Assembly: GCA_040882285.1 (NCBI GenBank)
Contig: JBBEBQ010000010.1
Span: 332,147 to 396,146, forward strand
Length of the DNA stretch: 64,000 bases
Origin: Gemmatimonadaceae bacterium
GTDB lineage: Bacteria; Gemmatimonadota; Gemmatimonadetes; Gemmatimonadales; Gemmatimonadaceae
Reading direction: 5' to 3'
Shown here: in pieces, positions 6,772-55,052 of the stretch
Layout: every line of letters starts with the position of its first letter
Numbering within the stretch: the stretch's first letter is position 1
The notes under the pieces: model-generated
Told to the model about the DNA's origin: nothing
Seen by the model: the letters and a program-made list of their open reading frames with translations, nothing else
Database searches by the model: none
Made by a program: the position numbers and the translations under genes

Positions 6772-6790
6772 CGGCAGAACGGCAAGCTGG

Positions 6791-6827
6791 AAAGGCGGGT
6801 GCGGATCGCACCCGCCTTTTCTTTTTG
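6791..6827 (+). terminator. Intrinsic terminator after the glycine-zipper gene
   Basis: The perfect stem AAAGGCGGGTGCG-AT-CGCACCCGCCTTTT is followed by CTTTTT. It lies 19 bp after the stop. Confidence 0.92.
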
Positions 6828-6843
6828 ATTGAACTACCACTGA

Positions 6844-6891
6844 GAACTGAATAGCTGCCCGCTGCCAGCTGGAAGCTGTCCGCTTGTCAGC
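6844..6891. repeat. Left arm of inverted heptad repeat flanking the four-helix-bundle gene
   Basis: About 48 bp in which GCTG recurs every 7 bp (AGCTG, CGCTG, AGCTG, AGCTG, CGCT). It is the reverse complement of 7391-7440 with few mismatches; AGCTGCCCGCT and AGCTGTCCGC are shared exactly. Confidence 0.85.
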
Positions 6892-6991
6892 CGACGGCAT
6901 GTTGACTCTTCGCGAAGATCGAACAGCGGATTGATGTTTGCCGGACGGAAGTGATTCACGCCTTGGCTCGGTTGAGGCGCAGACTTCCTGG

Positions 6992-7390
6992 GTGAGCGAC
7001 TATAAGAAGCTGCGCGTTTGGAGAAAGGCGCACTCTCTGGCGATCAATGCGCACCGCGTGGCAAGCCGGATGCGCGGGTCGCAGTATTCGAGCTTCCGAT
7101 CTCAGGTTATCCGTGCGGCCATGTCGGTGCCGACGAACATCGTCGAGGGACGGGAGCAAAAGGGCGAAGCCGGCTTCGCGCGCTTCCTCCGAATCTCGCT
7201 CGGGTCGCTTTCAGAGCTGGAGTATCACTTGCTTGCTGGACGCGACGTCGGCGCGATCTCGACGAGCGATCATCGTTCGCTCTCCAGCCAGGTCGAGGAA
7301 GTACGCATGATGCTCCACGGTCTTGTGCGAAAGCTCGAGAGCACCGGGAAATTGGCAGGTCAGCCACGACGAACGGTCAACAGGTCGTAG
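6992..7390 (+). CDS. Four-helix-bundle protein (S23/IVS-encoded family)
   Basis: 132 residues from GTG 6992. VSDYKKLRVWRKAHSLA is the typical family opening, followed by SQVIRAAMSVPTNIVEG near residues 45-60 and the long helix RISLGSLSELEYHL. Members form small helical bundles that oligomerise and bind nucleic acid, as in 23S rRNA intervening sequences and as Avd in diversity-generating retroelements. No rRNA, reverse transcriptase or template repeat lies nearby. ATG 6938 in frame is possible but would add a non-family N-terminus. The gene sits exactly between inverted heptad repeats. Confidence 0.85.
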   Translation: MSDYKKLRVWRKAHSLAINAHRVASRMRGSQYSSFRSQVIRAAMSVPTNIVEGREQKGEAGFARFLRISLGSLSELEYHLLAGRDVGAISTSDHRSLSSQVEEVRMMLHGLVRKLESTGKLAGQPRRTVNRS

Positions 7391-7440
7391 GCTGGACGGC
7401 GGACAGCTACCAGCGGGTAGCGGGCAGCTTATCAGTTTTC
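7391..7440. repeat. Right arm of inverted heptad repeat flanking the four-helix-bundle gene
   Basis: Reverse complement of 6844-6891. It begins at the stop codon of the four-helix-bundle gene and contains CAGCTAC, CAGCGGG, TAGCGGG and CAGCTTA in 7-bp phase. Confidence 0.85.
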
Positions 7441-7534
7441 TTTCAGTAATACCTTCTGCCCATTTTCTTCCGGAAACCTTCAATTTCGTCCGGCCCCCGT
7501 ACAACTTACCCGCCCCACCTTCGGACCCGCATTA

Positions 7535-9196
7535 ATGGATCGTTCGCGCGGCCCGCGAACAACCGACATACTGACCAGGCTTCCCGGCTTCGCGAGTCTG
7601 TTCGCGATCGCTTCGGGAACGGCCGTGCTCCTCGGATGGTCGCTCGGCATTCCCGAGCTGACGCGGATGCTTCCCGGCTTCGCTCCGGCTCGGCTGCTCG
7701 CGGGCGCGGCCATGGTTCTCTCGGGAGCCGCGCTATGGCTCGTGCGGGACGCGGAAGCGGGAACGCTCCGGCGGTTCACCGCCGCGATCCTGGCGGTTGT
7801 CGTTGCGGCCATAGGGCTCGCGTCGTTGAGCGAGCAGCTGATCGGGAGAGCCTTCGACTGGTCGCTGCTGGGGCCGCGCGTCACGGCGATACCGGGACTG
7901 ACCAGCAGCCTCCCGGTAAACTCCGCGTGGGGATTCGTCCTGGTTGCCGCCGCGGTGTGGACGCTGTGCTCGCGCAAGCTCAGCCGGAGCCGCGCGCCGC
8001 AGTGGATAGGGCTCGCGATCTTCCTCACCGGATTCTTCGCGCTCGTCGGACGAGCGTTCGGCGTCAGCGCGTTTTACAGCCCGATGCCGGGCCTCCCGAT
8101 GAGCCTCTGGGCGATGTTCGTCCTCCAGGTGCTCGGCGTCGGCGTCGTGTTCGCGCGGCGCTGGTTCGGCTTCTCGGCGCTGGTCATGGACAAAGGGCCC
8201 GGCGGAAAGCTCGCGCGCCGTCTGCTGCCGCCCGCGATCGCCATGCCTTTCGTCGTCGGATGGGCCGCGCTGCTTCTCGAGCGCGCCGGCGTGTACGGCA
8301 CGGAAGTGGGCTCCTCCTTCTTCGCGGTCACGATCGTGCTCGCGTTCACCTGGATGGTCATGCGCGCGGCGCGCGCGGTGCAGCGCGCCGACGCCGACCG
8401 GCTGGCGGTGCTCGGCCGCGAGCAGCACGAGCGGGAAGTCGCCGAGCTCGCGCTGGTCACGGCAGAAAAGGCGAGCCTCGCCAAGAGCGACTTCCTCGCG
8501 GTGATGTCGCACGAGCTGCGCACTCCGTTGACCGCGATCATGGGCTACGAGGAGCTGCTCGCCGACGGGATCACGGGACCGATCAGTTCACAGCAGGCGC
8601 AGCAGCTGAGCCGCATCAAGGCCAGCGCGCAGCACCTGCTCGGTCTAATCGACGAGATCCTGACGTTCTCGCGGATCGAAGCCGGCCGCGAGACGATCCG
8701 CCTGGAGATCGCGGACGTGAACCGGATGATCGAGGACTCGGCGAATCTCGTGGCGCCGCTGGCGGTGGAGAAGGAGCTCGGCTTCGTCGTGCACCTGCTC
8801 GACCCGCCGCGGTACATGCGCACGGATACCGTGAAGGTCCGGCAGATGATCGTGAATCTGCTCACCAATGCGGTGAAGTTCACCGAAACGGGGACGGTCA
8901 GCGTCAAAGCCGCGACCTCCGGACAGAACGTCGAGATCATCGTGCACGACACCGGGATCGGCATCGCCGAGGAGCACCTCGACAAGGTGTTCGATCCCTT
9001 CTGGCAGGTCGAGCAGAAGGCGACACGCAGGGCCGGGGGAACGGGCCTCGGACTCACCGTCACGCGGCGGCTCGCGCGGCTGCTCGGCGGCGACATCCTC
9101 GTGCAGAGCAGCGTAGGCGAGGGAACCAGCTTCACGATATCGATTCCGGGGCTCGCGACCGCGACTCCGACGGACACTCCAACAGTGACAGAATGA
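7535..9196 (+). CDS. Membrane sensor histidine kinase
   Basis: 553 residues. The first 280 or so hold about eight hydrophobic segments (for example LFAIASGTAVLLGW, ALLLERAGVYG) forming an uncharacterised membrane sensor. A short coiled linker follows, then HisKA with [15 protein letters not shown] (phospho-acceptor His at about residue 326) and HATPase_c with the N box NLLTNAVKFTE, G1 DTGIGI, F box DPFWQVEQ and G2 GGTGLGLTV. There is no receiver domain in the protein and no response regulator next to it, so the partner is unknown. It overlaps the M28 peptidase gene by 4 bp. Confidence 0.92.
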   Translation: MDRSRGPRTTDILTRLPGFASLFAIASGTAVLLGWSLGIPELTRMLPGFAPARLLAGAAMVLSGAALWLVRDAEAGTLRRFTAAILAVVVAAIGLASLSEQLIGRAFDWSLLGPRVTAIPGLTSSLPVNSAWGFVLVAAAVWTLCSRKLSRSRAPQWIGLAIFLTGFFALVGRAFGVSAFYSPMPGLPMSLWAMFVLQVLGVGVVFARRWFGFSALVMDKGPGGKLARRLLPPAIAMPFVVGWAALLLERAGVYGTEVGSSFFAVTIVLAFTWMVMRAARAVQRADADRLAVLGREQHEREVAELALVTAEKASLAKSDFLAVMSHELRTPLTAIMGYEELLADGITGPISSQQAQQLSRIKASAQHLLGLIDEILTFSRIEAGRETIRLEIADVNRMIEDSANLVAPLAVEKELGFVVHLLDPPRYMRTDTVKVRQMIVNLLTNAVKFTETGTVSVKAATSGQNVEIIVHDTGIGIAEEHLDKVFDPFWQVEQKATRRAGGTGLGLTVTRRLARLLGGDILVQSSVGEGTSFTISIPGLATATPTDTPTVTE

Positions 9197-10584: not shown

Positions 10585-10678
10585 GTGACTGGTGACTGGT
10601 GACTGGTGACTAGTGACAACGGGCTGGCAGCCTTTATTGCACGTCATCACTAGTCACTAGTCACCAGTCACTAGTCAC
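10585..10678. repeat. Foldback of ACTGGTG/ACTAGTG heptads
   Basis: Left arm 10585-10617 has four tandem GTGACTG/GTGACTA units. The right arm 10646-10678 is its reverse complement with three differences in 33 bp. The loop is 28 bp. The element lies between two co-directional genes and would form a very stable RNA hairpin without a U-tract. The heptad matches that of 691-713. Confidence 0.9.
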
Positions 10679-16872: not shown

Positions 16873-16920
16873 AGCTATTAGCTATTGGCTATTGGCTATT
16901 GGCTATTGGCTTTTGGCTGG
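16873..16920. repeat. Direct heptad array (GGCTATT)n
   Basis: Six tandem 7-bp units (AGCTATT x2, GGCTATT x3, GGCTTTT) and a partial. No inverted partner is seen within 150 bp, unlike the foldbacks at 33573 and 54957 which use the same heptad. Confidence 0.9.
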
Positions 16921-19907: not shown

Positions 19908-25594
<5,687 letters not shown>

Positions 25595-33568: not shown

Positions 33569-34677
33569 GGGGAGCTATTGGCTGTTGGCTATTGGCTCTT
33601 GGTAACTGCCTACGCCGCAGCTCATATCCGCTGTTGCCAACAGCCAACAGCCAACAGCTAACAGCTGTTGTTCTTTGCCTCGCATTAGCGGCGTGTTCCG
33701 GCGATGGACGTACCGTACTTACGGTCTATTCACCCCACGGCAAGGACCTGCTCGGCTACATGGAGACGGAGTTCGAGAAAGCCAATCCGTCGGTGGACGT
33801 GCAGTGGGTGGACATGGGGTCGCAGGAAGTGCTCGACCGGATTCGCGCCGAGGGCGCGAATCCGCAGGCGGACGTCTGGTTCGGCGCGCCGGCGGAAGCG
33901 TTCGACCGCGCTGCCCGCGAGAACCTGCTCGAGCCGTATACACCGACCTGGTCGGCCGCCGTGGACGGCGAAGCTCGGCATCCGCAGCATCTCTGGTACG
34001 GCACGTATCTCACGCCGGAGGTGATCGGCTACAACAGCGAGGCGCTGAGCGCGGCCGAGGCGCCGCAGGACTGGGACGACGTGCTCGATCCGAAGTGGAA
34101 GGGGAAGCTGCTCATCCGCGACCCGGTGGCTTCCGGGACGATGCGCGCTATCTTCGGCGCCATCATGCTGCGCTCGCTCGCGCAGACGGGATCAGAGGAG
34201 GCCGGTTACGACTGGCTGCGGCGGCTGGACGCGAACACACGCGAGTACGTGCTCAACCCGACGATCCTGTACCAGAAGCTCGGGCGGCAGGAGGGGATCG
34301 TCACGCTCTGGGACATGCCCGACATCGCGACGCTGCAGCAGCGGACGCGGATCCCCGTGGACTACGTGATTCCCGCGAGCGGCACGCCGTTGCTGGTGGA
34401 CGCAATCGCGATCGTGCGCGGCACCGATCAGCCCGCGGTTGCGCGAGAGTACTACGAGTTCGTGACCAGCGAGCCCGTGCTGCTCGAGTCGGCGAAGAGA
34501 TTCCTGCGCATCCCGGCGCGAACCGATCTGCACACGGATTCGCTGCCGGCCTGGATCCGCGACGCGAACGCGCGCATCAAGCCGATGCCGATGGACCGCG
34601 AGATCCTCGCGCGCGATCTCGACCGGTGGATGAAGTACTGGGACGCCAACATCCGAAACCAATCGCGCCGTAGGTGA
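33565..34677 (+). CDS. Solute-binding lipoprotein of a Fe3+/phosphonate-type ABC importer
   Basis: 370 residues if read from ATG 33565, which overlaps the PIG-L stop. Lipobox LAAC gives a lipidated Cys at about residue 44. The binding-protein fold follows (TVLTVYSPHGKDLLGYME, QADVWFGAPAEAFD, GYNSEALS, LIRDPVASGTMRAIFGAI, ASGTPLLVDAIAIVRG). The family includes FbpA-like iron and 2-aminoethylphosphonate carriers. No clear Tyr pair for iron is seen, so the substrate is open. The first 40 residues are encoded by a heptad foldback; TTG 33634 would give a 20-residue lipoprotein signal instead. Confidence 0.88.
   Translation: MRGAIGCWLLALGNCLRRSSYPLLPTANSQQLTAVVLCLALAACSGDGRTVLTVYSPHGKDLLGYMETEFEKANPSVDVQWVDMGSQEVLDRIRAEGANPQADVWFGAPAEAFDRAARENLLEPYTPTWSAAVDGEARHPQHLWYGTYLTPEVIGYNSEALSAAEAPQDWDDVLDPKWKGKLLIRDPVASGTMRAIFGAIMLRSLAQTGSEEAGYDWLRRLDANTREYVLNPTILYQKLGRQEGIVTLWDMPDIATLQQRTRIPVDYVIPASGTPLLVDAIAIVRGTDQPAVAREYYEFVTSEPVLLESAKRFLRIPARTDLHTDSLPAWIRDANARIKPMPMDREILARDLDRWMKYWDANIRNQSRRR
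33573..33666. repeat. Foldback of TTGGCTA/TTGGCTG heptads inside a coding start
   Basis: Arms 33573-33606 and 33633-33666 are reverse complements at 29 of 34 positions (counted by eye), loop 26 bp. Units are GGCTATT, GGCTGTT and GGCTCTT in 7-bp phase. The element begins 5 bp after the PIG-L stop codon and is translated as part of the binding-protein N-terminus if ATG 33565 is used. Confidence 0.9.
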
Positions 34678-53578: not shown

Positions 53579-54958
53579 GTGTCTGAAGATCTGACTCGTT
53601 ATCTGGATGACAACGACGCGAGGATTCGCGACGAGCTGTTCGACCTGCTGAGGATTCCAAGCGTCAGCGCGCGGTCCGAGCACAAGGGCGACATGACGCG
53701 GACGGCCGAGTGGGTGCGGGACTCGCTCAGCGAGCTCGGCTTCGAGACGAAGATCCATCAGACGAAGGGTCATCCGATCGTCGTCGGCGAGTGGAGAAAG
53801 GCTCCCGGCGCGCCGACGGTACTCGTTTACGGCCACTACGACGTGCAGCCGCCGGAGCCGCTCGAGCTGTGGACGTCGCCGCCGTTCGAGCCGACGATCC
53901 GGGACGGCAAGATCTTCGCGCGCGGCTCGGTGGACGACAAAGGCCAGTTCTTCCTGCACATCAAGGCGGTGGAGGCGCACCTGAAGACGCGCGGCAAGCT
54001 GCCCGTGAACATGGTCTTCCTCATCGAGGGCGAGGAGGAGATCGGGAGCGAGAACCTCGCCGAATTCGTGAACAAGCAGCGCGACTTGCTGAAGGCGGAC
54101 GCGGTAGTGATCTCCGATTCGACCATGTACGCGGCGGGGCAGCCGTCGATCCTCTCGTCGCTGCGCGGACTGGCGTACTTCGAGATCAACGTGCAGGGGC
54201 CGGCGAGCGACCTGCACTCCGGCATGTACGGCGGCGCCGTCGTCAATCCGGCGACCGCGCTCGCGAAGATCATCGCGACGTTCCACGACGCCAGGGGGCG
54301 AGTGGCCATCGACGGCTTCTACGATGCCGTCCGCGAGTGGGAGCCGGAGATACGCGAGCAGATGCGCGCCCTGCCGGCGGACGACGCCGCCTTTCTCAAG
54401 GAAGTGGGCGCGACGGCACTCGGCGGCGAGGCGGGCTACACGACGCTGGAGAAGCTGTGGACGCGGCCGACGTGCGAGGTGAACGGACTCCTCAGCGGCT
54501 ACACCGGCGAGGGCGCCAAGACCGTGCTGCCGGCGCACGCGATGGCGAAAGTGAGCTGCCGCCTGGTTCCCGACCAGCAGCCGCAGGAGATCGAGCGGCT
54601 GATGCAGGCGCACGTCGCGCGGGTGGCGCCGAAGGGAGTGACGGTGACGTGCGAACATCTGCACGGTGGCCGCGCGTGGAAGGCCACGCTGAAGGGCCCC
54701 ATCTTCGACGCGGCGCGCAGGGCGCTCGAGTCCGCGTTCGGTAAAGCGCCGGTGATTACAGGCGAGGGCGGCTCGATTCCGGTCGTCAGCGACTTCGAGC
54801 AGATCCTCGGCGCGCCCGTGCTGCTGGTCGGCTTCGGGCTTCCGGGCGAGAACGCGCACGCGCCGGACGAGTGGATCAGCGAGGAGAACTTCCGCCTGGG
54901 GATGCGGGCGATGGCGGAGATGTGGGACCATTACGCCGCCGCTGTCGCGGCGGCGTAG
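53579..54958 (+). CDS. M20-family dipeptidase
   Basis: 459 residues from GTG 53579 (GGAAGGG upstream). Zinc ligands and catalytic residues: VYGHYDVQPPEPLE (His, Asp), ARGSVDDKGQFFLH (bridging Asp), LIEGEEEIGSEN (catalytic and ligand Glu), VISDST (Asp) and a C-terminal ENAHAPDEW His. The dimerisation domain lies at about 180-340. Likely a cytosolic dipeptidase, with no signal peptide. Confidence 0.93.
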   Translation: MSEDLTRYLDDNDARIRDELFDLLRIPSVSARSEHKGDMTRTAEWVRDSLSELGFETKIHQTKGHPIVVGEWRKAPGAPTVLVYGHYDVQPPEPLELWTSPPFEPTIRDGKIFARGSVDDKGQFFLHIKAVEAHLKTRGKLPVNMVFLIEGEEEIGSENLAEFVNKQRDLLKADAVVISDSTMYAAGQPSILSSLRGLAYFEINVQGPASDLHSGMYGGAVVNPATALAKIIATFHDARGRVAIDGFYDAVREWEPEIREQMRALPADDAAFLKEVGATALGGEAGYTTLEKLWTRPTCEVNGLLSGYTGEGAKTVLPAHAMAKVSCRLVPDQQPQEIERLMQAHVARVAPKGVTVTCEHLHGGRAWKATLKGPIFDAARRALESAFGKAPVITGEGGSIPVVSDFEQILGAPVLLVGFGLPGENAHAPDEWISEENFRLGMRAMAEMWDHYAAAVAAA

Positions 54959-55052
54959 CTGTTGGCTGTTGGCTATTGGCTCTTAGCTACCCGCATCGCA
55001 TTTCCCGTCGTTTCGCCCCAAGCCAACAGCCAATAGCCAACAGCTAATAGCT
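54957..55052. repeat. Foldback of TTGGCTA/TTGGCTG heptads between convergent genes
   Basis: Arms 54957-54988 and 55021-55052 pair at 28 of 32 positions (by eye). Units GGCTGTT, GGCTATT and GGCTCTT lie in phase. It starts within the stop codon of the dipeptidase gene and ends 4 bp before the tamB stop. Same heptad set as 33573-33666 and 16873-16920. Confidence 0.92.

Follow-up and report, generated by a model that had tools for sequence, protein, structure and literature searches.

S23 genes are small bacterial genes that are mainly familiar from odd insertions in rRNA. In the intervening sequence (IVS) of Coxiella 23S rRNA, tandem GACAGAT heptamers are located directly upstream of the S23p start, and the terminal stem is 28 bp long (PMC4990558). 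According to a suggestion by earlier authors, IVSs are what remains of transposition or mobile elements (PMC4990558). Heptad repeats have also been described on their own. The G-rich heptads GGGNATC of Xanthomonas and Nostoc were described as G-quadruplex repeats that are generally not associated with mobile elements, and in Xanthomonas many of them form inverted pairs (PMC4692102). The terms “S23” and “four helix” are absent from that paper, and our literature search, which left most subscription journals and all preprints outside, revealed no publication connecting S23 genes to heptad arms. Finally, a layout of gene-bearing parents and gene-less derivatives is known from RAYT-REPIN systems (PMC3116915).

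Here we analyze a stretch of 64,000 nt from a Gemmatimonadaceae bacterium (below, the window), in which an S23-like gene bracketed by 50-bp inverted heptad repeats had been noticed in an initial annotation. The gene (6992..7390, + strand, 132 aa) matches PF05635 with 95 bits (cut-off 33.8) and TIGR02436 with 95.8 (cut-off 24). Its start codon is most likely the GTG at 6992, judging from the same position in relatives; an earlier in-frame TTG is found at 6938. The stop codon is at 7388-7390. The 5' arm (6842..6912, +) consists of the imperfect heptads AGCTGCC/CGCTGCC/AGCTGGA/AGCTGTC. It is followed by a leader (6913..6991, +) whose spacing is kept among relatives and in which no sigma-70-type promoter was found. 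The 3' arm (7370..7440, +) is an inverted copy of the 5' arm.

The arms are 71 nt each and are separated by a gap of 457 nt; 56 of the 71 positions (79%) are complementary. Their alignment score is 33.5, whereas dinucleotide shuffles score no higher than 13-14, and with a same-sized gap at 840 placements along the window a score of at least 18 was obtained only where the placement straddled the S23 gene. The period-7 self-match is 0.49 in the left arm and 0.54 in the right arm (p = 0.0005 each). Thus the bracketing of the gene holds, and so does the position of the right arm at the stop codon, since this arm overlaps the last codons together with the stop. The arms are of the heptad type as described; their length is not exactly 50 bp but about 50-71 nt, with imperfect heptads.

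The element stands directly behind the intrinsic terminator of the upstream gene (6789..6821, +). It lies in ordinary intergenic DNA, as had been noted, and not within 23S rRNA. Folding of the whole element as RNA gives z = -10.7 relative to 20 shuffles; in this structure the arms pair into a terminal complementary stem that encloses the ORF. Rfam families have zero matches in 20 element loci, and no known RNA family was found in the arms. A role as an anti-phage defense gene was rejected because PADLOC models do not match the S23 gene, and carriage by phages was rejected on 0 matches among 50,697 phage records.

Ten PF05635 loci were found in the source genome (G000, 2.9 Mb). Eight of them have inverted arms, each with an arm sequence of its own. 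A ninth, L001, was armless at first scoring; its 5' heptad arm (GTGACTA) is intact, and its 3' arm is decayed. The armless locus L009 (C27:18310) has a 231-aa open frame whose product, a divergent PF05635 protein with 43.5 bits, is possibly a domesticated member of the family. A PF05635 gene is present in 36 of 41 genomes of the order, in up to 14 copies, and in 159 of 298 sampled genomes of the phylum.

The earlier proposal of a mobile element supposed that homologous genes in other genomes are flanked by such arms as well, and this is what we found. Inverted short-repeat arms accompany 125 of 140 untruncated PF05635 loci of the phylum, a set that consists mostly of better-scoring matches and under-samples divergent family members. 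A cross-phylum scan covered Acidobacteriota, several classes of Proteobacteria, Planctomycetota, Chloroflexota, Bacteroidota, Verrucomicrobiota, Armatimonadota, Hydrogenedentota, WOR-3, and other phyla; 64 of 77 loci pass a similar arm cut, and several others show heptads by eye. Some of the loci counted are Gemmatimonadota records, and a few of those also belong to the phylum set; 56 of the 64 come from other phyla. The scan was made with alignment A2 and thus samples one subfamily, which carries P[AS]NIAEGH. On cyanobacterial plasmids all eight examined S23 copies have arms. About 10% of loci have no detectable arms.

Some insertion sites are of separate interest. In two different cyanobacterial CRISPR loci, on Anabaena sp. 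90 plasmid pANA02 (L343) and on Pseudanabaena galeata plasmid pPg_01 (L348), an S23 foldback element is located between cas6 and cas4. In Nostoc edaphicum (L342) one stands between two ribonucleotide reductase genes. In several genera of Rhizobiales (L211, L214, L230, and similarly L189) the element directly follows what seems to be the same gene end, WEGTDYVLPGDEKA; this is apparently an old shared insertion or a hot spot.

It is well supported that the S23 gene and its arms form one unit, which we designate the “S23 foldback element”. Its order is a G-rich 5' arm, a leader of about 85 nt, the S23 ORF, and a complementary 3' arm that starts from the stop codon. The median distance between the 3' arm start and the stop codon is 1 nt (IQR -13 to +12), being at most 30 nt in 93 of 119 elements, and the 5' arm ends about 100 nt upstream of the domain. 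The G-rich arm is the 5' one in 99 of 113 elements of the phylum (p = 6e-17) and in 56/56 elements of other phyla (p = 3e-17). A two-tetrad G-quadruplex motif occurs in the 5' arm of 68 of 119 elements and in its complement in 6 of 119. The element is therefore directional. Seven is the commonest repeat unit: the best arm period (n = 119) is 7 in 63 elements, 14 in 21, and 8 in 21, and period-7 arrays have a median of 4.7 units. A single consensus arm for all elements was ruled out, as the repeat unit differs from element to element. In two comparisons of orthologous arms 4 and 5 compensatory pairs were counted, while 1.3 and 1.7 were expected (p = 0.009 and 0.005); other pairs are broken. Arm similarity tracks protein similarity (Mantel r 0.19, with null values of at most 0.07), although this correlation could be plain co-inheritance.

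The ratio of estimated dN to estimated dS is about 0.23 between the window S23 gene and its G003 orthologue and about 0.06-0.11 in one S23 family. Judging from these values, the S23 protein is under purifying selection. These data bear on a rival explanation of the association, according to which heptads originate from slippage during replication and from inverted duplication, homologous recombination carries S23 genes from one heptad array to another, and the protein has no role in spreading. Heptads are indeed reported (cited in PMC4679880) to outnumber the other classes of 5-11 nt repeats in most genomes, and repeat number varies from strain to strain (PMC4990558). At one site of the window (33573, see below) an inverted arm adjoins an array that stands alone in sister species, as such a process would produce. 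However, an association at about 90% of loci with a fixed distance to the stop codon, the lack of such flanking at control placements, and dN/dS well under 1 argue against a passenger role, and we regard this explanation as improbable. The distribution of gene-less copies speaks against it too.

Four gene-less repeats are found in the window. A foldback of the GTGACTG/GTGACTA family occupies 10585..10678; GCTATTG repeats are represented by a single-arm array (16874..16918) and two foldbacks (33573..33666 and 54956..55052). By arm match, the parent of the GTGACTA repeats is L001 (C5:268653) and the parent of the GCTATTG repeats is L002 (C25:172454), both gene-bearing in G000; all four repeats match one or the other. 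The idea that the other foldbacks are gene-less derivatives of a protein-bearing parent is thus well supported, with one parent per repeat family instead of one for all. The window's own S23 gene (AGCTGCC family) did not give rise to the other window foldbacks, which match the arms of L001 and L002.

The same relation is seen genome-wide. With at most 40 candidates scored per genome, the arms of nine G000 loci have at least 72, 63, 48, and 72 matches in four genomes of their own genus, parents included, vs 0, 1, 1, and 2 among the matches listed for four other genera. Reciprocally, 20 arms of those other genera have 65, 56, 75, and 89 matches at home and none in G000, G001, and G003. Gene-less copies of a genome's own arms number in the dozens in each tested genome, and copies of the arms of other genera are almost absent. 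At 16 of 20 G000 sites inspected, the repeat is a foldback with two arms around a loop of 3-104 nt. Two of the nine tested families, L004 and L005, have no gene-less relatives in G000 among the matches listed. In named isolates of other phyla arm matches mostly fall on the isolate's own arm, giving a diagonal pattern; e.g., Thiobacillus denitrificans RG has 13 further matches, all of them to its own arm and some inside the same array. Some families have orthologous parents with diverged arms; here the arm version of the same genome matches best at 29 of 49 sites, with about one third expected and a few of the sites being weak matches. Gene-less foldbacks thus track gene-bearing parents of the same genome or genus, and this conclusion is well supported. 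Such cognate matching is not expected if S23 genes merely travel between heptads. Moreover, G002 has no orthologue of the L002 gene among nine copies examined, and it is also poor in GCTATTG sites: it has one in 130 kb, whereas G003 and the window predict 7.8 (P = 0.004, from a single comparison and uncorrected for the choice of family). This points to loss of the repeats after loss of the gene, again contrary to a passenger role. A tandem repeat of another kind, eight copies of a 276-bp unit with about 80% identity, is located at 20447-22656 of the window.

Comparison of sister species reveals turnover of sites. The window locus is common to G000, G001, and G003. G003 has the window element itself, G001 has a version with an internal deletion, and G002 has the empty site that the earlier proposal had called for: the terminator of the upstream gene is retained there and runs into the leader of the next gene. 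Within the genus the inheritance of gene-bearing copies looks largely vertical. In L041 (G001:C441), compared with 7260-7600 of the window, near-identity extends from the 3' half of the gene through the right arm into the following DNA, while the 5' half is about 84% identical; this pattern suggests recombination inside the element.

All four gene-less sites also differ among the sister species, where they are partial, contracted, absent, or replaced. In place of the foldback at 10585 G001 has a contracted palindrome. The orthologous site of 16874 has no array in G001 and G002. The foldback at 54956 is present in G003 and is missing or exchanged for another small palindrome in G001 and G002. 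Where the sites 16874 and 54956 are not simply empty, the replacement is a palindrome of another family. The foldback at 33573, located within the signal-peptide start of a lipoprotein-like gene, lacks its 3' arm and loop in G001, G002, and G003. At this locus (33573-33700) the GCTATTG array is a part of the signal-peptide coding start in four species, and in the source genome a new in-frame signal peptide seems to come from the added 3' arm. No target-site duplication is recognizable at the window site or at the gene-less sites.

Turnover of this kind has to be weighed against a host-serving RNA system. In such a system the S23 protein would act on transcripts that end in the cognate hairpin, as an RNA chaperone or a processing factor, and foldbacks would be 3'-end or stability elements that are maintained by selection and spread slowly by recombination. 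Several observations are in line with it: gene-less foldbacks often start at stop codons, the window element follows a terminator, strand asymmetry of the arms would fit an RNA role, and the protein is conserved by selection and has the fold of the RNA-binding Avd. Rehm et al. also found that most heptad repeats are transcribed and that many are near stop codons (PMC4692102). On the other hand, the sites vary between sister species, and many parallel families with unrelated arms occur in one genome. One foldback (33573) is inside a coding start, and the S23 gene is itself enclosed by arms. On balance, we consider a host-serving system unlikely, yet it is the likeliest of the rivals.

The predicted structure of the window S23 protein (pLDDT 93) has an Avd-like fold. 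It is close to solved members of the family, namely the pentameric XCC0516 (2GSC, TM 0.92) and BT_0352 (2RLD, TM 0.89), and, more distantly, to the Avd of a diversity-generating retroelement (DGR; 4DWL, TM 0.85). The protein is basic and, by analogy with 2GSC and 4DWL, probably forms a pentameric ring. Across 18 divergent members of the family, seven residues do not vary (Q38, S45, N49, E52, G53, S72, and E75 in the window numbering), and no known catalytic motif, including those of nucleases and polymerases, is evident in the protein.

The resemblance to Avd raises the question of a partner enzyme. One candidate is a reverse transcriptase encoded elsewhere, with which the S23 protein would cooperate as Avd does in DGRs, the hairpin RNA being converted to DNA. 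The fold, the known DGR ribonucleoprotein structures, and PHROG Avd matches for two S23 relatives (E 6e-6 and 6e-9) are compatible with this possibility. But no RVT_1 match was found in G000, G001, G002, G018, and G021, so that the retroelement link made in the initial annotation survives at the level of the fold and not as a reverse transcriptase in G000. Another candidate is a Y1 transposase of the RAYT/IS200 type that acts in trans, as the parent/derivative layout of REPINs might suggest. Y1_Tnp has no match in any of nine element-rich genomes (G000-G003, G007, G008, G011, G018, and G021). G018 and G021 carry 9 and 11 S23 gene copies, respectively, and both are estimated to be 100% complete. 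The absence of both domains from G000, G018, and G021 despite the many copies makes a partner of either type unlikely; we consider retro-mobility very improbable and mobilization by a Y1 transposase scarcely credible.

In our opinion S23 foldback elements rather probably constitute a self-spreading system comparable to RAYT-REPIN, in which spreading would be due to the S23 protein together with host enzymes. The S23 ring would recognize its own heptad arms as a single-stranded RNA or DNA hairpin and, acting in cis as well as in trans, would aid copying of such hairpins into new intergenic sites. Replication, repair, or RNA-processing enzymes of the host would do the cutting and copying, because no Y1 transposase and no RVT_1 were detected in either the element or the genome. 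The gene-bearing copy would be a rarely moving parent and the gene-less copies the mobile population. Speculatively, one heptad would be read per ring subunit, a suggestion based on the median number of units given above. IVSs of rRNA would be elements that landed in rRNA hairpins and that RNase III removes from the RNA. Since the Coxiella IVS has heptamers at the same place, rRNA is probably one of the landing sites of S23 elements, and the link to IVSs made earlier is strengthened.

The self-spreading reading relies on the association of gene and arms, the fixed anatomy, the cognate gene-less copies, and the turnover of sites, and further on the arm-protein correlation, purifying selection, some excess of compensatory arm changes, the 2GSC/Avd fold, and the Coxiella heptamers. 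Counting against it, no transposition event or intermediate was seen in this analysis, and target-site duplications and nuclease or polymerase motifs were not found; gene-bearing copies are largely vertical, about a tenth of the loci are armless, and L004 and L005 are without listed derivatives. Together, S23 elements and their gene-less repeats look like an undescribed family of selfish DNA. That they make up a class of mobile elements present in more than ten bacterial phyla, whose sole protein is a ring-forming four-helix bundle without a known catalytic motif that reads about one heptad per subunit, is a more tentative proposal, to which we give a little less than an even chance.

If true, one system would explain the rRNA intervening sequences, the heptanucleotide repeats of cyanobacteria, and the G-rich heptads of Xanthomonas. 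The findings offer a possible origin for IVSs and tie them to the unexplained abundance of heptanucleotides in bacterial genomes. A protein family labeled “unknown” or “ribosomal S23” for three decades obtains a genomic context and a testable function. If spreading is confirmed, hairpins would be dispersed by a protein outside the known transposases, recombinases, and reverse transcriptases.

S23 foldback elements have common features with each of the described systems. With the 23S rRNA IVSs of Coxiella and Leptospira (PMC4990558) they share the protein family and the position of its gene in the loop of a long terminal stem. IVSs, however, are inside 23S rRNA helices and are cut by RNase III, whereas S23 elements are intergenic, numerous in a genome, and accompanied by cognate gene-less copies. 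The Avd of DGRs has the same fold and, by analogy with the solved structures, probably the same ring assembly, but its companion is a reverse transcriptase, for which G000 has no RVT_1 match. The GGGNATC heptads of Xanthomonas and Nostoc (PMC4692102) resemble S23 arms as G4-prone intergenic heptad arrays near stop codons, and X. campestris has the S23 protein XCC0516 (PDB 2GSC). The closest resemblance in layout is to RAYT-REPIN (PMC3116915): one gene per repeat family, a gene flanked by the repeats, several families per genome, and gene-less inverted pairs scattered in intergenic DNA. A repeat-flanked gene with cognate dispersed gene-less inverted pairs is found in both, and a cautious reader could class S23 elements there. 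In RAYT-REPIN, however, the defining gene encodes a Y1 HUH tyrosine transposase, a domain without matches in G000-G003, while here the protein is an S23/Avd-fold four-helix bundle; unlike REPINs, S23 arms are mostly tandem arrays of 7-9 bases with a G-rich 5' arm. To our knowledge, no dispersal system uses a protein of the S23 kind, and for this reason we regard the S23 element system as new in kind.
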